64,000 nt of DNA, from positions 108,635-172,634 of the forward strand of contig NZ_MJEI01000099.1 of the NCBI RefSeq assembly GCF_002095395.1, in the 5' to 3' direction. The position numbers and the translations under genes are program-made. The DNA comes from Williamsia sp. 1135 (GTDB lineage: Bacteria > Actinomycetota > Actinomycetes > Mycobacteriales > Mycobacteriaceae). Of this stretch, positions 8,925 to 20,896 are shown in pieces; positions within the stretch are counted from its first letter, which is position 1, and every line of letters begins with the position of its first letter. The notes beneath the pieces were generated by a model that worked only from the letters and a program-made list of their open reading frames with translations, did no database searches and was not told where the DNA came from.

Positions 8925-9461
8925 TCAATTCTTGCTGAAGCGGTCCCCGGTCACGTCGTAGAGATGGTGCACGGGGTCGTGGATGAAGTAGATCCCCAGA
9001 GTTTCGACGGTGAACTCGCTGCCGTCGCTCCGCAGGCCACGCCGACCGAGTGCGTCGTCCGGAACCTCGGCGAACGCGTCGGCGACTCGGGTGGCGGCAG
9101 CCGTCAGTTCTGTCGCCACGTCACCGGGATCCTGATCTCGATAGCGCTCGGCGATCGCGGTGGCGTCCTGATCCCAATTGTCGAACTCGGGGACATCCTG
9201 GGACAGCATCTGCTCGACGCGTTCGGTGAACTTGGTGAACACGTCGCGAACGTGGGCCGCGTACTCCAGCGGTGACCAGGTGTCATCGTCGGGCCGCAGG
9301 CGAGCGTCACCGCCGGCGAGCGCAGTCGGCCATGCCGATGCGTTCTCCATGACCAGCCGGGGTATGTCCCGGTAGTCGACGATCGCGGGATCGCATCCGC
9401 AGTCCGGGCACGGCCGGTCGAGGACCCATGTCCAGTTCTTGGTGTCCGGTGTGATCGCCAT
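8925..9461 (-). CDS. DinB family protein
   Basis: Protein of 178 residues with a conserved N-terminal WVLDRPCPDCGCDPA, a central SPLEYAAHVRDVFTKFTERV with the first metal His, and a C-terminal IYFIHDPVHHLYDV supplying further His ligands. These fit actinobacterial DinB-like metal-dependent proteins. I chose the ATG at 9461, preceded by GGGAGA at a good distance; an in-frame ATG five codons upstream is possible. Function unknown beyond the fold. Confidence 0.82.
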   Translation of the reverse strand: MAITPDTKNWTWVLDRPCPDCGCDPAIVDYRDIPRLVMENASAWPTALAGGDARLRPDDDTWSPLEYAAHVRDVFTKFTERVEQMLSQDVPEFDNWDQDATAIAERYRDQDPGDVATELTAAATRVADAFAEVPDDALGRRGLRSDGSEFTVETLGIYFIHDPVHHLYDVTGDRFSKN

Positions 9462-9543
9462 CGGGTCTCCCGTCATCAGGTGCGAGGCAAGATTACCGCT
9501 CTGGCGCGAGGGAGTGGGCAATTCGCGCGCGGCGGCCGTTATC

Positions 9544-9573
9544 TTTTCGTGACTTTTCGTGACCTTTTCGTGA
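9544..9573. repeat. Three direct repeats TTTTCGTGA upstream of the MAA operon
   Basis: TTTTCGTGA occurs at 9544-9552, 9554-9562 and 9565-9573, start-to-start spacings of 10 and 11 bases, or about one helical turn. They lie about 95 bases upstream of the first gene of the sunscreen operon, in the gap between it and the divergent DinB gene. The phased spacing suggests tandem binding of an activator or repressor; no candidate protein is encoded next to it. Confidence 0.55.
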
Positions 9574-9666
9574 TGTTCGGTGCGTCCTTGCCGACACCTG
9601 GTCTGTTCACACTCGAAGAGGTCGAGCAATGGCATTGGACATCAACGGATTCCAGGAAGGAACACG

Positions 9667-10335
9667 ATGGCTGCCATCTTGTTTGGATCAATCAGTACCC
9701 TTGCGGATACCTCCGAAATTCAGCGCCGTGCGTTCAACGAAGCGTTCGAAGCCCACGGATTGGACTGGAAGTGGGGTCGAGACGACTACATCTCCATGTT
9801 GGCGAGTAACGGTGGTGCGCAACGTATTGCCGACTATGCCGAGTCTCGTGGCGAGACCGTTGATGCGGCTGCGGTTCATGCAACCAAATCGTCGATCTTT
9901 CAGGAACTGGTGGCGATGCTGGGCATCGAGCCCCGTGCCGGCGTCTTGGACGCGGTTGCGGCTGCGAAGACCCACAACGTCAAACTCGGCCTGGTCACGA
10001 CGACGTCACCCGAGAACGTCACCGCGCTGCTCGCCGGACTCCCGGACGTATCTCGCGAAACCTTCGATGTGGTGGTGGATTCGGCGACGGTGGACACGGG
10101 GAAGCCCGACCCGGCGTCGTACAACTACGCACTGGATCAACTCGGGGAAGACGCCGGCTCGTGCGTCGCGATCGAGGACAACGTCGGCGGAGTGCACGCG
10201 GCCACAGCCGCCTCCGTGATCTGCGTGGCATTCCCGAATCAGAACACCGTGAGTGGCGACTTCTCTGAAGCCGTCGAGGTTGTCGGTCAGCTCGATGCAG
10301 ATCGTCTGCGCGCCTTGACCGACACCGATCGCTAG
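9667..10335 (+). CDS. HAD-like hydrolase family protein lacking motif-I aspartates
   Basis: Protein of 222 residues in the HAD subfamily IA (CbbY/beta-phosphoglucomutase-like). Motif II (GLVTTT), motif III Lys ([12 protein letters not shown]) and motif IV ([14 protein letters not shown]) are present, and the cap follows residue 15. Motif I, normally DxDGT, reads FGSIST, so both the nucleophile and acid/base aspartates are absent. It may be non-catalytic or use other chemistry. I started at the ATG at 9667, with AAGGA upstream, rather than the longer open frame. It is 28 bases ahead of mysA in the same direction and so is probably the first gene of the MAA operon. Its role there is unknown. 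Confidence 0.85.
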
Positions 10336-10363
10336 CGCTCACCGGCAGTCAGAGAGGATTCAG

Positions 10364-11590
10364 ATGAGCGACATCCAAGCCAGCGTCACCGCCACCGAAC
10401 GCGCATTCCACGTCGAAGGCTACGAGAAGATCGAGTACGACCTGTTGTACGTCGACGGCGTCTTTTCCATCGACCAGCCACACCTGGCCGATACCTATCG
10501 CGGCTATGGCCGCTGCCTGATGGTGATCGACGAAAGTGTGTACGCGCTTTACGGAACGCAGATCCATCGGTACTTCGACCACCACGATCTGCAGCTCACG
10601 GTTGTTCCCGTCGGTATTGCCGAGACCGCGAAATCGCTCCGCACCTACGAAGACATCGTCGGCAAGTTCGACGAGTTCGGTCTTGTCCGGACCGAACCGG
10701 TCCTGGTGGTGGGCGGCGGCCTCACAACCGACGTGGCCGGTTTCGCGTGTGCCAGTTATCGACGCAATACACCGTACATCCGCATACCGACCACCTTGAT
10801 CGGACTGATCGATGCCAGCGTGTCGATCAAGGTGGCGGTCAATCACGGCAAGCACAAGAACCGGCTGGGCGCTTACCATGCCTCCCAGAAAGTGTTGCTG
10901 GACTTCGCTTTTCTCCGAACCCTGCCTGCCGACCAGGTGCGTAACGGTATGGCCGAGCTCATCAAGATCGCGACGGTCGGTAACTCGGCCATTTTCGACA
11001 TGCTCGACGAGTACGGCCCCGAGCTCCTGCGCACCCGATTCGGGCATCTGGACGGAACTGCAGAGCTACGCGCAGTGGCGGACAGCCTGACCTATCAGGC
11101 CATCGAGACCATGCTCGAACTCGAGGCGCCGAATCTTCATGAGCTGATGCTCGACCGGGTCATCGCGTTCGGGCACACGTGGAGTCCCACACTCGAACTG
11201 TCGCCTCCGGAACCGTTCTTCCACGGTCATGCGATCAATATCGACATGGCACTGTCGACCACGCTCGCCGAGAAGCGGGGACTCATCTCGGTCGATGACC
11301 GCGACCGGATCCTCGGGGTGATGAACCGCCTGGGCCTCGCCCTCGACAGCGACCATCTCACCCCCGAATTGCTGGCTGAGGCAACGCAGTCCATCCTCAG
11401 GACGCGAGATGGACTACTGCGGGCGGCGGTACCGAATCCGATCGGGCAATGCCAGTTCCTCAACGACGTCACCGTCGACGAACTCGCCGACACGCTCACC
11501 GTGCACAAGAAGATCTGTCTCGACTTCGAGCGCGAGGGTGCAGGGATCGACATGTTCACATCTGCGCCGATGGCCTCCGTCGATGGCTGA
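10364..11590 (+). CDS. mysA: Demethyl-4-deoxygadusol synthase (sedoheptulose 7-phosphate cyclase)
   Basis: Sugar-phosphate cyclase of 408 residues related to dehydroquinate synthase. It would cyclise sedoheptulose 7-phosphate to demethyl-4-deoxygadusol, the first MAA step, using NAD and a divalent metal. Seen are [10 protein letters not shown] at 117-126 (NAD site), [30 protein letters not shown] at 163-172, Glu198 in MAELIK, and the His motifs FGHTWSP and HGHAINID for metal. The C-terminal NGxGID-like tail GAGIDMF also fits DDGS proteins. A 2-epi-5-epi-valiolone synthase is the close alternative, but the following mysB-C-D order strongly favours DDGS. AGAGGA precedes the ATG. Confidence 0.92.
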
Positions 11591-12416
11591 GATGGTGTCG
11601 ATCCCGTCGCACCCGGTCACGCCGTCGACAATCCTTGCGGTGGAGCTCGCCGAACTCGTGGAGTTGGTCGATGCGGCGCCCGAGCCGGCGCCGGGGCTCA
11701 AGGACCGGTTGCGACGGGCGCGCGACTTGGCGCGCGGTCTCGACCCCTACCTGGAGGAGTGCACGACCCCGGAGTCACCCGCGCTGGCCGCTCTGGCGGC
11801 GCGTACTCGGGCGGAGCGCTGGGGAGAGCGGTCGCTGGTCTCCGGATCGGGGCCGTTGGAACAGGAGATGCTGTCGGGACATGTGGAGGGCCAGACACTG
11901 AAGTTCCTGGTCCACATGACCCGCGCCCGCCGGGTCCTCGACATCGGGATGTTCACCGGATACTCGGCGCTCGCCATGGCCGAGGCGCTCCCCGAGGGCG
12001 GCGAGGTGGTGGCCTGTGAGGTCGATCCATACGTCGCCGACGTCGCCCGCCAGTGTTTCGCCGAATCACCTGCAGGGAGCCGGATTCGGGTGGAAGTCGG
12101 TCCAGCGCTGAACACCGTTCTCCGGCTCGACGGGCCGTTCGACCTGGTGTTCATCGACGCAGACAAGACCGGGTACCTCGACTACTTCCACTACCTCATC
12201 GGCAGTGAGCTCCTCGCGCCGCACGGAGTGATCGCCGTCGACAACACACTCTTGCAAGGGGAGCCCTACGCGAACAATGGTTCCCGTTCCACCAACGGTC
12301 AGGCGATTGCCGACTTCAACCGGGTCGTCGCCAACGATGCCAGGGTGGAGCAGGTGCTGCTGCCGTTGCGCGACGGGGTAACCCTCATCCGGCGAACGGG
12401 TGCGGACGGGCCATGA
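11583..12416 (+). CDS. mysB: O-methyltransferase, MAA pathway
   Basis: SAM-dependent O-methyltransferase of 277 residues (caffeoyl-CoA OMT-like) that would methylate demethyl-4-deoxygadusol to 4-deoxygadusol. Motif I is [20 protein letters not shown]; the metal/catalytic region is [19 protein letters not shown], and [11 protein letters not shown] completes the fold. The ATG at 11583 overlaps the end of mysA by eight bases and the stop overlaps mysC (ATGA), so translation is coupled. An ATG nine bases further in is an alternative start. Confidence 0.9.
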
Positions 12417-13714
12417 CGGCAGCGTCGTCGGTCAGGACAATCGGTGCACTGGCGGGACTCCTCGCGACGTTTCCGGTCGATCTCGCGGTCACTGTGATCG
12501 CCGTGCTCCGGCGCGTGCCACCGCCGGTGGTGGACGAAACGAGCAGGCGCCGCACGGTTCTCATCACGGGTGGCAAGATGACGAAGTCGTTGTCGCTCGC
12601 CCGCGCCTTCCACCTGGCCGGGCACCGGGTCATCCTGGCCGAATCAGCGAAGTACCGGTTCACCGGCCATCGTTTCTCCAAGGCCGTCGACACGTTCCAC
12701 TGCCTCCCGGAACCGACGTCACCGCACTACGCCGATGCATTGCTCGACGTGGTCAAGCGGGAAGAGGTCGATGTCTTCGTGCCGGTCTCGAGCCCGGCGT
12801 CCAGTGTCTACGAGGCGGATGCGGGCGAGATCCTCGGAGACTTCTGCGACGTCGTCCACGGGAATCTGCGTACGGTGCGGATGGTCGATGACAAAGACCA
12901 ATTCTCGGAGTTCGCGCGGTCGGTCGGCGTCCGGGTTCCGGATTCGCGGCGCATCACCGACCCGGTCCAGATCTCGGAGTTCGATTTCCCGCCCGGCCGC
13001 GAGTACATCCTGAAGCGTATCGCCTACAACCCCGTCGGGCGCATGGACCTCACGAAGCTCTCACGCGAGACGCCCGAGCGAAATCTGCAGTTCGCTGCGA
13101 GCTTGTCGATCTCCGAGGATGATCCGTGGATCTTGCAGGAATACATTGCAGGCCAGGAGTATTGCACGCACGGTACCGCGCGTGCAGGGAATCTACAGGT
13201 GTACGCGTGCTGTGAGTCGTCGGCCTTTCAGGTCAACTACGAGATGGTGGACAAGCCGGAAATCCTCTCGTGGGTGCAGACGTTCGTGGGTAGGCTCGGT
13301 GTGAGCGGCCAGTATTCGTTCGACTTCATCGAGGGTGCGGACGGGCATGCCTACGCAATCGAGTGCAATCCCCGGACTCATTCGGCCATCACCATGTTCG
13401 AAGGCCACCCCCAGCTGGCCTCCGCCTATCTCGACGACCGTCACCCGATGATCGTTCCGGACGCGGATTCACTGCCGACGTACTGGATCTACCATGAGCT
13501 GTGGCGGTTGCTGACCGAACCGGGTCGCCGCCATCGCCTGCGGGTCATCGGACGAGGACGCGACGCCATCTTCGCAGCATGGGATCCGCTCCCATATCTA
13601 CTCGTTCATCATCTTCAGATCCCGTCTCTGCTCGTGAAGAGTCTGATCACCGGAAAAGTCTGGACGCGTATCGATTTCAACATTGGCAAGCTTGTCGAGC
13701 TGGGGGGCGACTGA
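12413..13714 (+). CDS. mysC: ATP-grasp mycosporine-glycine synthase
   Basis: ATP-grasp ligase of 433 residues that would join glycine to 4-deoxygadusol, giving mycosporine-glycine. As in cyanobacterial MysC, an N-terminal hydrophobic segment (about residues 10-32) precedes VLITGGKMTKSLSLARAFHL and AGHRVILAES. The ATP-grasp part has REYILKRIAYNPVGRMDLTK, then DPWILQEYIAGQEYCTHG, and the metal-binding YAIECNPRTHSAI (E-x-N-x-R). Both ends overlap neighbours by one to four bases. The N-terminal segment suggests membrane association. Confidence 0.92.
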   Translation: MTAASSVRTIGALAGLLATFPVDLAVTVIAVLRRVPPPVVDETSRRRTVLITGGKMTKSLSLARAFHLAGHRVILAESAKYRFTGHRFSKAVDTFHCLPEPTSPHYADALLDVVKREEVDVFVPVSSPASSVYEADAGEILGDFCDVVHGNLRTVRMVDDKDQFSEFARSVGVRVPDSRRITDPVQISEFDFPPGREYILKRIAYNPVGRMDLTKLSRETPERNLQFAASLSISEDDPWILQEYIAGQEYCTHGTARAGNLQVYACCESSAFQVNYEMVDKPEILSWVQTFVGRLGVSGQYSFDFIEGADGHAYAIECNPRTHSAITMFEGHPQLASAYLDDRHPMIVPDADSLPTYWIYHELWRLLTEPGRRHRLRVIGRGRDAIFAAWDPLPYLLVHHLQIPSLLVKSLITGKVWTRIDFNIGKLVELGGD

Positions 13715-14748
13715 TGCGACCGGTGAAAGTTCTCGCCCTGGCGGGCTCGCCCGTCGACTACTTCCGCGCCGACCTGTCCCGGGTGTACTCGACGGGCTTC
13801 GTAGATGCGTTCAGGGGTCTGGACGGCTACCGCATCGAGGTGGCCTACGTCTCGCCTGATGGCCGCTGGCGGTTCATGAGCGAGCTGAACGCGGACGAGA
13901 TCGCTGCAGCGCGGGCGGTCTCCCTCGCGGACGCCGTCGGCTACATCCAGGCGCGACGCTACGACGTGATCGTTCCTGAGATGTTCTGTCTCCCGGGTAT
14001 GACGGCGTACCGGTCTCTGTTCGACGTGATCGGCGTCCCGTACCTGGGTAACCGTGCCGATGTGATGGCACTGACGGCCGACAAGCATTTGACGCGCGTT
14101 GTCGTCGCCGGGGCGGGAGTCGCGGTGCCCGCAGGTGAGGTGCTCAGGGCGGGTGAGAAGTACACCGGAGAATTGCCCGTTGTCGTCAAACCTGCGGACT
14201 CCGACAACTCCATGGGTGTGACCTTGGTACGAGAGAACTCGGACATGAACCTCGCAGTTGACGATGCGCTGCTGTACTCGGATTCGCTACTCGTCGAGAC
14301 CTACGTACCACTGGGCCGAGAGGTGCGGTGCGGCATAATCGTTCGCGATGGCGAGTTGGTGTGCCTGCCCCTCGAAGAGTACGCAGTCGACGAGCAGGAT
14401 CACCCCATCCGCGCTCGCGCCGACAAGCTGGACCGGACCTCCGACGGTCAGCTGTACCTGGTGGCGAAAGAGTCCACCAAGGCGTGGATGGTCGACGTGG
14501 ACGACCCGGTGACCGAGGCGGTGTGGGCCGCTGCCCGACGCGCTCACGTCGCTCTCGGTTGCCGGCACTACAGTCTGTTCGACTTCCGGATCGATCCGGA
14601 CGGCGTGCCCTGGTTTCTCGAGGCCGGACTGTACTGCTCGTACTCACCGAGCAGCGTGATCGCAGTGATGGCTTCCGCCGCCGGTATCACCGTCGATGAG
14701 TTGTTCGCCATCGGCCTGCGAGAGATCGCGCGAGAGAAGGCTCGCTGA
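13714..14748 (+). CDS. mysD: D-Ala-D-Ala ligase-like MAA synthetase
   Basis: ATP-grasp ligase of 344 residues of the MysD type, which condenses mycosporine-glycine with a second amino acid (Ser to shinorine, Thr to porphyra-334). Visible are IGVPYLGNRADVMALTADKH, the ATP-binding PVVVKPADSDNSMGVTLV, LLVETYVPLGREVRCGIIV and the C-terminal FDFRIDPDGVPWFLEAGLYC region carrying the metal ligands. The ATG shares the A of the mysC TGA, and the stop shares a base with the next gene. Which amino acid is accepted cannot be read from sequence. Confidence 0.9.
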   Translation: MRPVKVLALAGSPVDYFRADLSRVYSTGFVDAFRGLDGYRIEVAYVSPDGRWRFMSELNADEIAAARAVSLADAVGYIQARRYDVIVPEMFCLPGMTAYRSLFDVIGVPYLGNRADVMALTADKHLTRVVVAGAGVAVPAGEVLRAGEKYTGELPVVVKPADSDNSMGVTLVRENSDMNLAVDDALLYSDSLLVETYVPLGREVRCGIIVRDGELVCLPLEEYAVDEQDHPIRARADKLDRTSDGQLYLVAKESTKAWMVDVDDPVTEAVWAAARRAHVALGCRHYSLFDFRIDPDGVPWFLEAGLYCSYSPSSVIAVMASAAGITVDELFAIGLREIAREKAR

Positions 14749-15509
14749 TGCAGTATCAGGTCGTCGATCCGATCGGTGCTCGCGTCACCGATCTGTCCTT
14801 GGACGAGGTGGACGGCGGCGACATGGCCCGGCTCGAGAAGCTGCTGGCGGAGGCCGGTGTCGTGGTCATTCCAGACCAGAACGTAGACGACAGGGCATTT
14901 CTCGCGTTCCTGGAGCGGTTCGGTGAGCTGATGTTCACCAAGGGCGAGATGCCGCTCGCGGGCTACCCTGACCTCAACGTCATCAGTAATGTCGGCCGGA
15001 CGACACCGCCGAGGTCCACCTTTCACGTCGACACGACGTATGTGTCGCAGCCGCCCCGGTACACCGCGTTGCGTGCGGTGCACGTGCCCCAAGAGGGTGG
15101 TCACACCCAGTTCAGCAATCAGTACGCGGCGTACGACACGCTCCCTGATGAGATTCGGGAGGACCTGGCCGGCCGCCTCGTGACCCATGTTGTCACCGGG
15201 GTGGATCCGGGCGATGACGCGGAAACGTCCGCTGTCCATCCGATCTTCCTGGCCCACCCGTTGTCGGGGAGGACCGCGCTCTATTTGTCGGCAGCGGCGA
15301 GGTGTGCGGCGATCAGCGGCAAGACGTCGGAAGAGACAGCGGAGGTCATCGCCTACCTCATCACCCACTCGACCCGAGAGGACAACGTCCTTCGGCACGC
15401 TTGGTCCGCCGGTGACGTCGTGATGTGGGACAACCGGGTTGTCATGCACCGCGCCGACCACAGTGGTGTGGTCGGCGACCGCGTGATGCATCGGGGAATG
15501 GTCAGGTAG
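14748..15509 (+). CDS. TauD/TfdA-family Fe(II)/2-oxoglutarate dioxygenase, MAA operon
   Basis: Dioxygenase of 253 residues. The 2-His-1-carboxylate site is clear: His93 and Asp95 in TFHVDTTY and His234 in WDNRVVMH, with Arg245/Arg249 (DRVMHRGMVR) for 2-oxoglutarate. The N-terminal AEAGVVVIPDQNVDD is typical of the family. Its ATG overlaps the mysD stop (TGATG), so it is translated with the MAA genes and most likely modifies the MAA product. Known MAA-tailoring MysH is a phytanoyl-CoA-type 2OG enzyme, a different branch, so this would be an alternative tailoring enzyme. The substrate is inference. Confidence 0.88.
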   Translation: MQYQVVDPIGARVTDLSLDEVDGGDMARLEKLLAEAGVVVIPDQNVDDRAFLAFLERFGELMFTKGEMPLAGYPDLNVISNVGRTTPPRSTFHVDTTYVSQPPRYTALRAVHVPQEGGHTQFSNQYAAYDTLPDEIREDLAGRLVTHVVTGVDPGDDAETSAVHPIFLAHPLSGRTALYLSAAARCAAISGKTSEETAEVIAYLITHSTREDNVLRHAWSAGDVVMWDNRVVMHRADHSGVVGDRVMHRGMVR

Positions 15510-15535: not shown

Positions 15536-16252
15536 TTACCGGGTAGCGACGGAAGCGCCGTGGAGCAGTTGAGTAACGTCTGCCGCGCTCGGCAGTATGT
15601 GGGTGAGAGGTTGTTGCTCAAGGGTTTCCGCGCCGAAGGAGCCGGATAGCACGCCGACGACGAAACCGGCTGCGGCATTGTGTCCGGCCAGAACGTCGCT
15701 GGGGGTGTCACCTGCGACAAGTACTCGCCGCACATCGGTCACGCCGGTTGCCTCCATGCAGCGATAGATCAGATACGGAGCCGGACGGCTGGCCGGGACG
15801 AGGTCACTGGTGATCAACGCGTCCACGGTGTCGCTGGGATAGCCGCCGACCGTCCAGCCCAGGCCGTCGAGTATGGCTTGTGCGATGTCGGACGAATACC
15901 CGGTCTGTAGCGCGATCTTGACGCCGGCTTCGTGCAGCGCGGAGAAGGTCTCACCGATTCCTGCCACCGGCTTGGGCGGGGCGTCGCGATAGGCGGTCGT
16001 GAGGCGTTCGACGAAGTCGGCGAACACCACGTCGACCCGCGTGGTCTCGGCCGGTTCACCGAGTTCGGCGAGAAGGCCGGCGATGGCTTCTCGCTTGCTG
16101 GTCCCTTTCCATCGGGCGAGAAGATCGTGCGGTACCGGGTGACCGACGGCGTCTGACACGACGCGATCGAGTACGTCGTAGACAAGTCCTCCCTCGTCGA
16201 CGGTGGTGCCGGCCATGTCGAGCGCGGCGAGGTCGAAGGTGCGAGTGGTCAT
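15536..16252 (-). CDS. Phosphonatase-like HAD hydrolase (PhnX-related, TIGR03351-type)
   Basis: HAD hydrolase of 238 residues. Motif I LDMAGTTVD carries nucleophile Asp12 and the Ala14 replacement typical of phosphonatases. The cap has WKGTSKREAI with Lys49 and Lys53. Motif II is ALQTGYSSD and motif IV VLVAGDTPSDVLAG. Lys53 aligns by eye with the Schiff-base Lys of PhnX, but the GTSKREA context also recalls beta-phosphoglucomutases. It would cleave the C-P bond of a phosphonoaldehyde or a related phosphate ester. Its ATG overlaps the stop of the GntR gene, and it faces the end of the MAA operon. Confidence 0.85.
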   Translation of the reverse strand: MTTRTFDLAALDMAGTTVDEGGLVYDVLDRVVSDAVGHPVPHDLLARWKGTSKREAIAGLLAELGEPAETTRVDVVFADFVERLTTAYRDAPPKPVAGIGETFSALHEAGVKIALQTGYSSDIAQAILDGLGWTVGGYPSDTVDALITSDLVPASRPAPYLIYRCMEATGVTDVRRVLVAGDTPSDVLAGHNAAAGFVVGVLSGSFGAETLEQQPLTHILPSAADVTQLLHGASVATR

Positions 16253-17007
16253 GAGCTCTCTTTCACGATGCGCATGTCGCCGATGGCGCGAGTGGATGCG
16301 GGTTGGGTGTTGTCGATGGTGAACGTGACCTTGTCCGGGCGGTACCGGTCGTCGGCGTACTCGATGGGTTTGCCGGCATGATCGACCGCACGACGCCTCT
16401 CCCGCAGCAGGGGAGCGCCGGGATCGATGTCGAGTTGCGCTGCGTCTACGTCGGAGGCGGCGACAGCGTCGATCGTGTGCCTGCCCTCGAACAGGTCGGC
16501 TCCACGCCCGAGGAGGTAGGCGTAGATCGAACCCGAGTCCGGATCGAAGTCGAAAAGCATGCGCCCGACGGGCTCGATGAAACTGGAGCGTTCGAGCATG
16601 GCGGGTGTGCCGTCAAGTGTTCGGAGGCGCAGCACGTCGACGACGGGTTCGCCCTCCTCTACGCCGAGGGAGGCCGCGGCGACCGCGCTAGCACCTCGTC
16701 GGGCAACTTCGATCGTGCGCTGGCCGGGGACGCGCCCGATGTTGTTCGCCCAGGTGGTGAACGACATGAACGTCTCGAACGGTTGTGCCACCGCCGCCTC
16801 GCGGACGATCGGCGGGCGACCGCGGCTCACGCTGATGAGTCCCTCGTGCCGCACCGTGGCGAGCGCGGCGCGCACTGTGCCCCGTGACGCCTCGAAACGC
16901 GCACACAGACTGGACTCTGACGGTAGCGCGGACCCGACGGGTAGTGTGCCGTCCAGGATTTCGTTGCGCAGCACATCGGCGACCCTCGTATGTAAGGGAA
17001 CGGCCAT
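16249..17007 (-). CDS. GntR/HutC family regulator with UTRA domain
   Basis: Regulator of 252 residues. The N-terminal winged HTH (about residues 5-70) reads VADVLRNEILDGTLPVGSAL, PSESSLCARFEASRGTVRAA, and the C-terminal UTRA effector domain includes PVVDVLRLRTLDGTPAMLER and PLLRERRRAVDHAGKPIEYA. I placed the start at MAVPLHTRV, which fits the family, not the longer open frame. It is cotranscribed with the phosphonatase-like gene and divergent from the FAD oxidoreductase and Phn transporter, so it is the likely phosphonate-responsive repressor. Confidence 0.92.
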   Translation of the reverse strand: MAVPLHTRVADVLRNEILDGTLPVGSALPSESSLCARFEASRGTVRAALATVRHEGLISVSRGRPPIVREAAVAQPFETFMSFTTWANNIGRVPGQRTIEVARRGASAVAAASLGVEEGEPVVDVLRLRTLDGTPAMLERSSFIEPVGRMLFDFDPDSGSIYAYLLGRGADLFEGRHTIDAVAASDVDAAQLDIDPGAPLLRERRRAVDHAGKPIEYADDRYRPDKVTFTIDNTQPASTRAIGDMRIVKESS

Positions 17008-17031
17008 CCGACACCTTCTTTCTGTCGATCG

Positions 17032-17136
17032 AACCTGTTTGAACAACTCCACCACGAACAGACTTAGCATGCCTCAATTCGGGGTTGCTGTCCCGAACTG
17101 CAAGGTAAACGTTCGGCAAACTTGTACAAACAAGTT
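17032..17136. promoter_or_regulatory. Candidate GntR operators in the phosphonate divergent promoter
   Basis: A perfect inverted repeat AACTTGT-N4-ACAAGTT is at 17119-17136, 48 bases upstream of the FAD oxidoreductase start. A weaker copy, AACCTGT-N4-ACAACT, begins at 17032, close to the regulator's own start. Both have the same four-base spacer. This fits HutC-type GntR binding on both promoters; binding by the adjacent regulator is inferred. Confidence 0.55.
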
Positions 17137-17183
17137 GCGCTGAGGTCTTGACCGCAGTTGGTCTCGGCGGTCACGGTTGTCGC

Positions 17184-18308
17184 ATGACCTCAACACACAA
17201 CCGTCACGACCTGGTGATCGTCGGTGCTGGAATCGTCGGCCTCGCGCATGCGGCCGAGGCGCTCTCACGGGGCGCGTCGGTTGCGGTCGTCGAACGTGAC
17301 GAATACGCGGTGGGTGCTTCGATTCGCAACTTCGGTCACGTGTGCACCACCGCGCAGGATGGCCGGGGCCTCGAGTTGGCGTTGGTGGCTCGCGAGCGCT
17401 GGCTCGAACTCGGCCGCAAAGCGGAGTTCGGGGTAGAGGAGTGCGGCACAGTCGTTCTCGCCCGCACAGAAGATGAAGTCGCCGTCCTGGCCGAGTTCAT
17501 CGACACCCGGGGCGCAGAGCAGGCCCGATGGCTCGATCGAGCCGATCGCAGCGCCGTGATCGGTGGCGCCGAAGTGCTGGAAGCCGCGTATCTGCCGCTT
17601 GATCTGAGGGTCGACCCCGAACGTGCGGTAGGGTCCCTCGCCACGTGGCTCGCTGCAGAAGGTGTCGAGTTCCATTGGGGCTCACAGGTCACTTCCATCG
17701 ATACCGATGAGAACGGGGTCGCGGTGCGAACCCCGAATGGTTCCGTTCACGCACGCACTGCTGTCCACGCTGTCGGCCACGACGTCGACAGGTTGTATCC
17801 GCAGATCGCCGCGGACTGGCAGGTGCAACGGTGTCGCCTCCAGATGCTGGAAGTCGAGGCGCCGCATGGACTTCGCATCGAACCGGCGTTGCTGACCGGC
17901 CTGTCGATGCTGCGGTACGCCGGGTTCGCGGCCATGCCCTCGGCTGCCGCTGTCCGTTCCCGCTTCGAAATCGAATCGCCAGAACTCCTCGACGTCGAGA
18001 TGAATCTCATGCTCACGCAACGGCCCAGTGGCGCGCTCGTCCTCGGCGACACCCATCACAACGCCCGCACCCACACCCCGTTCGACGACGAGCGAAACGC
18101 CGAACTCCTGCTGCGCGAGGGCGCCCGGCTCTTCGGTGCGCCGCTACGCGTGGCCCGCCGATGGCGTGGCGTCTATGCGACCTCACCGCTGACCGACTTT
18201 CTCGTCGCCCGGCCTGCCCCCTCTGTTCGGGTCGTGTCGGTGACGTCGGGAATCGGTATGACCACAGCGCTCGGATTGGCCCCCACCGTGTTGAACGACC
18301 TGCTCTGA
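17184..18308 (+). CDS. FAD-dependent oxidoreductase, phosphonate-associated (TIGR03364-type)
   Basis: DAO-family flavoprotein of 374 residues. The dinucleotide-binding motif VIVGAGIVGLAHAAEALSRG is at about residues 11-30, followed by VVERDEYAVGASIRNFGHV, in which ASIRNFG is characteristic of this subfamily. The end SVTSGIGMTTALGLAPTVLN carries the second FAD contact. Family members occur beside phosphonate hydrolases and transporters and are thought to oxidise an amino- or methylamino-phosphonate to an aldehyde, which the PhnX-like enzyme could then hydrolyse. That order of steps is inference. First gene of the rightward phn operon. Confidence 0.88.
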   Translation: MTSTHNRHDLVIVGAGIVGLAHAAEALSRGASVAVVERDEYAVGASIRNFGHVCTTAQDGRGLELALVARERWLELGRKAEFGVEECGTVVLARTEDEVAVLAEFIDTRGAEQARWLDRADRSAVIGGAEVLEAAYLPLDLRVDPERAVGSLATWLAAEGVEFHWGSQVTSIDTDENGVAVRTPNGSVHARTAVHAVGHDVDRLYPQIAADWQVQRCRLQMLEVEAPHGLRIEPALLTGLSMLRYAGFAAMPSAAAVRSRFEIESPELLDVEMNLMLTQRPSGALVLGDTHHNARTHTPFDDERNAELLLREGARLFGAPLRVARRWRGVYATSPLTDFLVARPAPSVRVVSVTSGIGMTTALGLAPTVLNDLL

Positions 18309-18366
18309 ATCGCCCTGAACTGCCCTACTTCACCCCCCGCTCGACTCATCACCATCAGGAGAAATC

Positions 18367-19290
18367 ATGTCCCGCACCATTCGTCGTCGCTCGTGTGCAG
18401 TGATGGCCGCCGTCACGGTCGCAATGTCGGTCGTCGCCGCCTGCGGAGACGGCAGTGACAGCGCCGCCGCCTCACCTACCTGCCCGAACGGCAAGATCCG
18501 GTTCGGCGTGGAGCCGTTCGAGGATCCCGCAAAGCTCACCCCGGCGTTCCAGGTGGTGGCCGACGGACTGTCCGAAAAGCTGAATTGCCCGGTCGAGGTC
18601 ACCGTCGTCGACAGCTACTCGGCCGAGGTACTCGCGATGCGCAACGGGCAGATGGAGCTCGGCGTGTTCGGTCCGCTCGGGTATGTGTTTGCCGGACAGG
18701 AAGCCGATGCCAAGCCGCTCGCGTCCTTCGGTACCGCAGACGGTGTGCTCTCTACCTACACCGCGGGTATCTGGGTGCCCGCAGACTCGGACATCCGATC
18801 CATAGACGATCTCCGCGGCAAGGATCTGGCGCTGTCGGAGCCCGGATCGACCTCGGGGGACGGTCTGCCACGGATGGCGTTGAAGAACGCCGGCATCAAG
18901 GAGGGTGATGTGAACATCACCTACGCCGGTGGTCACCCCGAGGCCCTGTTGGCACTGGCCAACGGCAAAGTCAATGCCGCTGAGATCAATTCGCAGCAAC
19001 TCAACACCTCGGTCAAGGAAGGCGCGTTCGATCCGACGAAGTTCCGGCAGGTCTGGACCTCCGAACCCATCCCCAACGATCCGATCACGGTGTCCGGCAG
19101 CACCAGTCCCGAGTTCCAGAAGGCTGTCGCCGAGGCATTGCTGAACCTGCCACCGGAGGCGGTGGAGAAGGCAGGCGCACTCCTCGACGTCGAGCCCGCC
19201 GGCCAGCTGCTCCCGGTCGACCAGAGCACCTACCAGCCCCTGTTCGACCTGGCTTCGGCACTGGGACTCACGTCCAAGGATGTCGAATGA
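18367..19290 (+). CDS. Phosphonate ABC transporter substrate-binding lipoprotein (PhnD-like)
   Basis: Binding protein of 307 residues, phosphate/phosphite/phosphonate family. The lipoprotein signal ends at lipobox SVVAAC (Cys about 23). The mature part has KIRFGVEPFEDPAKLTPAFQ, then VDSYSAEVLAMRNGQMELGV, FGPLGYVFA and the phosphonate-site region LSEPGSTSGDGLPRMALK, all typical of PhnD. RBS CAGGAG lies just upstream. The stop overlaps the ATPase ATG by four bases. Confidence 0.92.
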   Translation: MSRTIRRRSCAVMAAVTVAMSVVAACGDGSDSAAASPTCPNGKIRFGVEPFEDPAKLTPAFQVVADGLSEKLNCPVEVTVVDSYSAEVLAMRNGQMELGVFGPLGYVFAGQEADAKPLASFGTADGVLSTYTAGIWVPADSDIRSIDDLRGKDLALSEPGSTSGDGLPRMALKNAGIKEGDVNITYAGGHPEALLALANGKVNAAEINSQQLNTSVKEGAFDPTKFRQVWTSEPIPNDPITVSGSTSPEFQKAVAEALLNLPPEAVEKAGALLDVEPAGQLLPVDQSTYQPLFDLASALGLTSKDVE

Positions 19291-20075
19291 CCCGCGTCGC
19301 GTCGACTGTGGACCTCAACATCGCTGCGTCCCAGTCGTCGTCGGCACTCGCAATTCGGGGTATCAGGGTGCGGTACGGCAACAAGGTGGTCTTGGACGGG
19401 GTTGATCTCGACGTCGCTGCCGGCGAGGTGGTCGGCGTCCTGGGTGCCAACGGTTCCGGGAAGTCGACCCTGCTGCGATGTGTGGTCGGACTGGCGACAA
19501 CCACGGACGGACGCATCACGGTCGCGGGACGGCCCGTCGACATGCATTCGAGGGACCCCCGGTCGGCGGCGATGGTGTTCCAGAAGATCCACCTGATCCC
19601 GCGGAGGTCGGTACTCGACAACGTGTGCGCCGGCGCACTCGGTCGACTCGACATCCGTCACTCGTGGTCGACGTGGGCGTTCGGTCGAGAGCTCAAGGAG
19701 GAGGCCATGGGCTGCCTCGACAGAGTCGGCCTCGCCGATCGTGCTCATGATCGTGCCGGTCGTCTGTCCGGCGGTCAGCAGCAGCGGGTGGCAATCGCCC
19801 GTGCGCTGTGCCAACGCGCGCCTGTTCTGCTCGCTGACGAACCCGTCTCGGCGCTCGACCCTGCTGCGGCCGAACAGGTCATGCGACTGCTGTGTTCTCT
19901 CGCAGGCGATGGCATCGCGGTCGCCGCGGTCCTGCATCAACCAGATCTCGCACGCAGGCACTGTGATCGCCTCGTCGGACTCTCGGACGGTCGAATCACG
20001 TTCTCGGCCAGACCTGATCAGATCGACGACGACGTCGTCGCACGGCTCTACCTTTCCGAGGAGACGGACCGATGA
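19287..20075 (+). CDS. Phosphonate ABC transporter ATP-binding protein (PhnC-like)
   Basis: ABC ATPase of 262 residues. Walker A is GANGSGKST, Q-loop MVFQKIHL, signature LSGGQQQR and Walker B PVLLADEPVSALDP, with the switch His in VLHQPD. The insert NVCAGALGRLDIRHSW before the signature is usual for PhnC, which has an N-V-x-x-G-x-L-G motif there. It overlaps both neighbours by ATGA and powers phosphonate uptake with the PhnD- and PhnE-like proteins. Confidence 0.92.
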   Translation: MTRVASTVDLNIAASQSSSALAIRGIRVRYGNKVVLDGVDLDVAAGEVVGVLGANGSGKSTLLRCVVGLATTTDGRITVAGRPVDMHSRDPRSAAMVFQKIHLIPRRSVLDNVCAGALGRLDIRHSWSTWAFGRELKEEAMGCLDRVGLADRAHDRAGRLSGGQQQRVAIARALCQRAPVLLADEPVSALDPAAAEQVMRLLCSLAGDGIAVAAVLHQPDLARRHCDRLVGLSDGRITFSARPDQIDDDVVARLYLSEETDR

Positions 20076-20896
20076 CGACCTTGACTCTTCCTCGACTGCC
20101 GGTGCCGACGCGACCGCGCCGGCGCCTGGGCCTGATCGCCGGCGCACTCATAGCCGTCGGCCTGATAGTGGTCCACATCTGGGCGTTCACGCTCACCGAC
20201 TTCTCGGTGTCGGCGCTGATCGGTGGCTGGTCGGGCATGGTCGACTTCCTCTCCTCTGCCATCCCGCCCGACCTGTCGTGGTCGACGGTCGTCCAGCCGG
20301 GTATCGAGGCGTGTCTGGTGACACTCGCCATCGCGCTGGTGGGCACCACCCTGTCGATCCCGTTCTCCGTGGCGCTCGCGGTCCTCGGGGCACGCACCAC
20401 ATCGCGCAATTCGTTTGTGTATCAAGCCGCTCGAGGCGTGATGTCATTTCTGCGTGCGGTTCCGGACATCGTCTTCGCGCTCATCTTCGTCACGGCCGTG
20501 GGGTTGGGACCGTTTGCCGGCGTGCTGGCCTTGATCTTCCACAACTCGGGCGTGATGGCGAAGCTGTGGTCAGAAACGATGGAAGAGATTGATGACGGTC
20601 CGACCGAGGCGCTACGCGTCGGCGGAGCGTCGAGCGCGCAAGTGGCCGTCCACGCCGTACTCCCATCGGTGGTCCCTCAATGCGTCGGGCTGCTGCTGTA
20701 CCGCTTCGACGTCAACGTGCGGTCATCCCTGGTGCTCGGCCTGGTCGGCGCGGGAGGTATCGGCTTCCTCATCAACCAGTCGATCGCACTGTTCCGATTC
20801 GATCAGATGTTGACCTACATCCTCATGGTGCTCGTCATGGTAGTCGCGGTCGACCTGCTCAGCGGTGCGGTCCGGCGCCGGCTGGGGGCGGCGTGA
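20072..20896 (+). CDS. Phosphonate ABC transporter permease (PhnE-like)
   Basis: Inner-membrane permease of 274 residues with about six hydrophobic segments. The BPD_transp_1 loop reads EALRVGGASSAQVAVHAVLP, followed by NVRSSLVLGLVGAGGIGFLI, the PhnE signature. The N terminus is basic and cytoplasmic, with the first membrane span around residues 23-42. Overlaps PhnC by ATGA, and its stop overlaps the GTG of the truncated alcohol dehydrogenase. Confidence 0.92.
   Translation: MTTLTLPRLPVPTRPRRRLGLIAGALIAVGLIVVHIWAFTLTDFSVSALIGGWSGMVDFLSSAIPPDLSWSTVVQPGIEACLVTLAIALVGTTLSIPFSVALAVLGARTTSRNSFVYQAARGVMSFLRAVPDIVFALIFVTAVGLGPFAGVLALIFHNSGVMAKLWSETMEEIDDGPTEALRVGGASSAQVAVHAVLPSVVPQCVGLLLYRFDVNVRSSLVLGLVGAGGIGFLINQSIALFRFDQMLTYILMVLVMVVAVDLLSGAVRRRLGAA

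Follow-up and report, generated by a model that had tools for sequence, protein, structure and literature searches.

Mycosporine-like amino acids (MAAs) serve in nature as UV filters and attract commercial interest. A run of six genes in Williamsia sp. 1135 joins the genes predicted to make one with two further genes, for a HAD-fold protein and a TauD/TfdA dioxygenase. What would a HAD protein do in such a cluster, if not cleave phosphate? The window is the whole stretch of DNA that was analysed, 64,000 nucleotides in length, and the host genome is 5.98 Mb.

Layout of the cluster and identity of its core genes

The preliminary description of this DNA had placed six genes at 9667-15509 in one operon-like run, with overlaps of 1-8 bases from mysA on. 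We found all six open reading frames there, all on the + strand, and the overlaps agree with the claim: they measure 8 bases for MysA/MysB, 4 bases for MysB/MysC and 1 base each for MysC/MysD (the MysC stop and the MysD ATG at 13714) and MysD/TauD. A gap of 28 bases lies between HAD and MysA. The six genes and their two neighbours are as follows.

8925-9635, - strand: DinB_2 protein, the neighbour 5' of the cluster
9667-10335, + strand: HAD/CbbY-fold protein (pseudo-HAD) with motif I FGSIST as compared to FDxDGT; Pfam PF00702/PF13419; CbbY is the best PDB match
10364-11590, + strand: MysA, desmethyl-4-deoxygadusol synthase (DDGS), from 5tpr and ValA scores, tree and diagnostic columns
11583-12416, + strand: MysB, O-methyltransferase (PF01596, 2.2e-45), behind mysA in most related clusters
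12413-13714, + strand: MysC, ATP-grasp ligase (NF005315, 403.5 bits), with orthologues in mys clusters
13714-14748, + strand: MysD, D-Ala-D-Ala-ligase-like second amino-acid ligase (PF07478, 1.9e-17 over 13705-14748)
14748-15509, + strand: TauD/TfdA Fe(II)/2-oxoglutarate dioxygenase (PF02668, 1.1e-52), with HxD at 93-95
15536-16252, - strand: PhnX-like HAD, the neighbour 3' of the cluster

From spacing only, we infer that the six genes would be co-transcribed. A consensus scan for a sigma-70-like promoter returned 0 as compared to 1.2 expected in shuffles. The 3' edge of the cluster lies at 15502-15503, where the sequence stops resembling, at the nucleotide level, three related loci from Williamsia soli (L086), Williamsia sp. 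1138 (L087) and W. limnetica (L088); the first two are the nearest named loci, with ~91% nucleotide identity. The phosphonate genes 3' of the operon were considered as members and rejected, because the first two are on the opposite strand and the similarity to the three Williamsia loci stops at that edge. The gene set recurs in other families, so the arrangement is far beyond chance.

MysA matches 5tpr, which we take to be the Anabaena DDGS (the PDB table labels it 3-dehydroquinate synthase), with 557 bits and 61% identity, as compared to 267 bits and 40% identity for the EEVS ValA (4p53). Among the 222 columns that differ between 5tpr and 4p53, MysA agrees with 5tpr in 117, with 4p53 in 31 and with neither in 74. 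In a tree of 23 rows, MysA groups with 5tpr and the cyclases of mys clusters, apart from ValA and the host AroB; 10 of the 20 inner forks are open, and, owing to long branches, the exact positions of ValA and AroB are uncertain. The preliminary description had named a grouping of the cyclase with EEVS as the outcome that would speak against it, and we found that the branch separating 5tpr from ValA leaves MysA with 5tpr. Judged from these comparisons of sequence, MysA is a DDGS and not an EEVS. That the operon makes an aminocyclitol through an EEVS is hardly credible: the sugar phosphate cyclases, the superfamily of MysA, do include EEVS, and MysA does match ValA, but the scores, the tree and the diagnostic columns rule this reading out, and MysB, MysC and MysD are all there.

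Behind this DDGS-type cyclase of sedoheptulose 7-phosphate (SH7P) we found an O-methyltransferase, an ATP-grasp ligase and a D-Ala-D-Ala-ligase-like protein, in the order of a mysABCD cluster. MysC has no Pfam match and its NF005315 score is slightly below the cut-off of 406; its orthologues are found in the mys clusters of Actinomycetota and Chamaesiphon. With MysC and MysD recognised by family scores and gene context, the earlier account of a sunscreen cluster of the mysABCD type in a mycolic-acid actinobacterium, enlarged by two extra genes, stands, and the cluster is almost certainly a sunscreen operon with a predicted product. In the known pathway, MysA converts SH7P to desmethyl-4-deoxygadusol, which is methylated by MysB and then receives glycine from MysC and a second amino acid from MysD; starting from SH7P, MysA-D of the window would build a shinorine-type compound. 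The MAA clusters of Actinosynnema mirum and Pseudonocardia sp. P1, reportedly described by Miyamoto in 2014, are said to have the mysABCD core in common with the window. The DDGS reaction from SH7P is described in PMC4426668, and a Nakamurella MAA cluster is reported in PMC9789016.

Distribution of the cluster and of its TauD gene

We found MysC orthologues (E <=1e-140) in 24 of the 298 genomes of the host's order, the host's own genome counted; among the host's relatives the cluster is thus no rarity. Searches of the order and the phylum together gave 28 actinobacterial loci that were found through MysC first, and of these 26 carry HAD and 24 carry TauD. Two loci from one genus of the host's order (L067 and L068, in genomes G083 and G150) have mysABCD with neither HAD nor TauD. 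In two draws of 396 actinobacterial genomes from across the phylum, a close HAD (E <1e-60; the next matches drop to 2e-29) is present in 7 genomes, and MysC is present in the same 7. In a third draw, a close TauD (E <1e-80) is present in 5 of 371 genomes, all 5 among the MysC-positive ones. A scan with HAD peptide patterns outside motif I gave 112 named loci; in the best 80 of these, MysA is present in 79, MysB in 75, MysC in 76, MysD in 74 and TauD in 69, where presence is set by bit thresholds and several gaps are contig ends. The 28-locus and 80-locus sets share five genomes, with identical HAD in both.

The preliminary description took the two extra genes to make the cluster unusual. These counts do not bear that out, and the conservation had already been reported: a 2025 GATOR-GC preprint (PMC11888242) describes HAD and TauD/TfdA as conserved with MAA genes in Actinomycetota, and also in Pseudomonadota and Bacillota. 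Its clusters resemble that of the window, with a DHQS-type cyclase, an O-methyltransferase, an ATP-grasp protein, a D-Ala-D-Ala-ligase-like protein, HAD and TauD, and the window likewise has HAD and TauD/TfdA alongside the core. The layout is thus not new, and the six genes are a well-formed example of an already known type of cluster. The preprint cites unpublished work on an operon of Rhodococcus fascians D188 with HAD and TauD, from which Streptomyces coelicolor made shinorine, palythine and palythine-serine; in the R. fascians loci L094 and L135, we found the same gene order as in the window.

In cyanobacteria, MysC is present in 27 of 244 genomes and a close HAD in 0 of those 27. The sole cyanobacterial genome with a close HAD (1 of 244) is the Chamaesiphon genome at the search centre (G678), which gave no MysC match at the cut-off. 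The preprint text states that HAD and TauD are absent from Cyanobacteriota (PMC11888242). In contrast, three cyanobacterial loci are exceptions here: L151, L158 and L160 carry HAD, and L151 and L160 also carry TauD (L158 and L160 are from MAGs). Among cyanobacteria, the nearest relatives of TauD that we found come from Chamaesiphon and a related MAG (48-49%); the others are at about 27-33%. Ten TauD loci from five cyanobacterial genomes had no match to other window proteins and none to one NRPS-type pattern.

The window TauD keeps the HxD metal-binding motif (H93-V94-D95), as do all 92 related loci with a TauD match of at least 200 bits; this count is from 108 loci, of which 5 with weaker matches (L096, L128, L147, L150 and L155) and 11 with no match were set aside. 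A parallel exists in cyanobacteria, where mysABCD is joined by MysH or MysI, so that the core pathway and an amino-acid-trimming 2-oxoglutarate oxygenase both have counterparts in the window. MysH is a phytanoyl-CoA dioxygenase and differs in family from the window TauD, for which Pfam reports PF02668 TauD only. MysI of Nostoc sp. UHCC 0926 is a TauD/TfdA protein with a proposed role in palythine formation (PMC10510106). The window TauD probably acts on the sunscreen, and would trim the shinorine-type compound to a palythine.

The position of TauD varies. In the best 80 of the 112 named loci, TauD follows mysD on the same strand in 56 and lies between mysB and mysC in 7; the latter place is also found in 12 of the 28 MysC-first loci, and in a few loci TauD is in front or on the other strand. 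TauD is absent beside HAD in L065 and L085 of the 28 MysC-first loci, whose genomes, G267 and G505, have no close TauD elsewhere (best 32% and 76 bits in G267, none in G505), and in L102, L138 and L156 of the best 80 of 112, where the search covered the locus only. In L096, L147, L150 and L155 the TauD matches are weak or partial, and L158 is cut by a contig end. Because TauD is missing from these five HAD-bearing loci (L065, L085, L102, L138 and L156), HAD cannot serve palythine formation alone.

A HAD protein without the motif I aspartates

The best structural match of the window HAD is CbbY, a xylulose-1,5-bisphosphate phosphatase (4uar, 4uat). The two proteins have in common the HAD fold with its cap, motifs II to IV, and the W-x-W and GG-xx-R stretches. 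They differ in motif I, where D8 and D10 of CbbY, which we take to be the nucleophile and the general acid of the D-x-D motif, are occupied by G7 and I9. Gly-Ser-Ile (rarely Gly-Ser-Leu) replaces Asp-x-Asp of CbbY in all 107 sequences compared (one from the window, the others from 106 loci). In 66 sequences, T111, T113, K146 and E170-D171 of motifs II-IV are invariant, as are G7, S8 and P190, N193 and T194 of a PN-x-NT stretch. By their entry titles, the CbbY entries in the PDB with bound XuBP are of a D10N mutant. The Foldseek and VIA matches ranked under CbbY are other HAD proteins and are uninformative on the ligand. The earlier label "HAD-like" is right about the fold and incomplete otherwise, since the aspartates that define the hydrolase are missing.

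To see how strongly HAD is constrained, we compared dN/dS values. Against Williamsia, dN/dS is 0.05-0.06 for HAD and 0.18-0.35 for TauD. Against three Rhodococcoides loci, where dS is >1, the values are 0.16-0.17 for HAD, 0.09-0.10 for MysA and 0.17-0.23 for TauD; in this comparison MysA is more constrained than HAD, and TauD is close to HAD. The HAD values in both comparisons and the wide spread of the gene rule out a decaying gene. We also considered a HAD/MysA fusion and rejected it: the apparent case, L074, consists of two frames with a stop, and the flags on L082, L083 and L158 stem from gene order.

The aspartates are lost in all close relatives examined, the fold and the other motifs are kept, the gene is under purifying selection and, in the actinobacterial draws, it occurs in the same genomes as MysC; these data indicate that HAD is a maintained pseudo-phosphatase. 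It is very probably not a standard phosphatase and, with both catalytic aspartates missing, likely does something other than phosphate cleavage. We did not find the motif loss in print in a search of literature listings and the beginnings of abstracts. The main text of the GATOR-GC preprint names HAD from Pfam only, calls its role unvalidated and nowhere uses a word that starts with catalytic, aspart or motif (PMC11888242).

Possible roles of the HAD protein

HAD lies directly 5' of mysA in 76 of the best 80 of the 112 named loci and in 24 of the 28 MysC-first loci. Among 105 HAD/MysA pairs there are 10 in which the HAD stop and the first MysA codon of the alignment share 4 bases, in the style of coupled genes. 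Common descent may be the cause of this adjacency. Because HAD stands beside mysA, TauD is mobile and HAD persists without TauD, we prefer to see HAD as a partner of the cyclase, which would hold a sugar phosphate for MysA rather than hydrolyse one. This role, with SH7P or another phosphorylated intermediate as the ligand, is a tentative proposal: the best of those considered, but less likely than not. More doubtful still is its extended form, in which the actinobacterial and Chamaesiphon MAA clusters would have a dedicated CbbY-derived pseudo-phosphatase without catalytic aspartates, from a branch common to a non-MAA Roseobacter protein, that was recruited to take SH7P from central metabolism to MysA. 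We put the probability of the whole reading (a sunscreen operon, with TauD leading to palythine and HAD holding a sugar phosphate for MysA) at roughly 0.7. HAD is not essential for MysABCD, as L067, L068 and the cyanobacterial mys genomes without HAD indicate. Nor is the HAD family MAA-specific everywhere, since a GSI-type HAD is encoded on a plasmid of Roseobacter litoralis, where the annotation lists no MAA gene within 12 kb of it.

Could HAD instead work with TauD at the palythine step, for instance by aiding release of the hydroxylated side chain? Consistent with this, TauD is never seen without HAD (24 of 24 in the 28 MysC-first loci), L067 and L068 lack both, and HAD directly adjoins TauD in the cyanobacterial loci L151 and L160. 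However, HAD is retained in the five loci without TauD, it stays by MysA while TauD shifts place, and it is more constrained than TauD against Williamsia, although close to it against Rhodococcoides. We consider a TauD partner that does not serve MysA unlikely.

We are similarly sceptical that HAD is an enzyme with a different chemistry in the same pocket, for example through the invariant Ser8 or K146. The purifying selection and the invariance of G7, S8, K146, E170, D171, P190, N193 and T194 would fit such an enzyme, but with both motif I aspartates gone the usual nucleophile and general acid are presumably gone too, and no known step of the pathway needs a further hydrolase. An improbable alternative is a pathway regulator that senses a sugar phosphate with no hand-over to MysA; a CbbY-type fold that keeps its other motifs around a broken catalytic site would suit a sensor, and HAD comes first in the cluster at most loci, but Pfam gives HAD domains only and a regulator gene is absent beside HAD.

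The point that is new, in that we did not find it in print within the listings and abstracts covered, is that the conserved HAD gene of these clusters encodes a pseudo-phosphatase. That a HAD protein is maintained although it lacks the phosphatase nucleophile takes away the default guess of a sugar phosphatase, and points to binding, hand-over or non-standard chemistry.

Phosphonate genes downstream of the operon

Directly behind the MAA operon, at 15536–20896 of the window, we found phosphonate genes:
15536–20896 (within), minus strand, PhnX-like HAD
15536–20896 (within), minus strand, PhnF-like GntR
15536–20896 (within), plus strand, TIGR03364 FAD oxidoreductase
15536–20896 (within), plus strand, PhnD/PhnC/PhnE-type transporter

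The GSI-type HAD in other genomes

The GSI-type HAD, which carries Gly-Ser-Ile at the catalytic Asp-x-Asp of CbbY, is present in loci from Chamaesiphon polymorphus (L151), a Chamaesiphon MAG (L158) and a Synechococcales MAG (L160), and in L151 and L160 it is directly followed by TauD. These three loci run contrary to the preprint PMC11888242, which states that HAD and TauD are both missing from Cyanobacteriota. L152, which shares its 5.8 kb mys contig with L071, bears the record title Candidatus Melainabacteria and encodes a HAD identical to that of a locus from a genome of the window host's own order; the title or the binning of this contig therefore looks wrong. A GSI-type HAD (FGSIGT) is also encoded on Roseobacter litoralis plasmid pROLI81 (L166:11989–12660), with no MAA genes annotated around it in the 24.7 kb viewed.

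Variant MAA clusters

In L156, from an uncultured actinobacterium, the ORF that comes after mysD (L156:14004–15632) carries a deoxyribodipyrimidine photolyase-related domain (PF04244). In the clusters L082 and L083, the mysA position is taken by a different cyclase, which is 37–39% identical to the DDGS reference 5tpr and likewise to the EEVS ValA, and has DAGPSPRTCCDG at the site of DASVAIKVAVNH in 5tpr. Four clusters counted as mycobacterial from genus label or record title (L060, L063, L097 and L149) have the order HAD-mysA-mysC-mysD-TauD, without mysB, and whole-genome searches found no close MysB in any of the four genomes (top match 69 bits). Their products may be desmethyl sunscreens.
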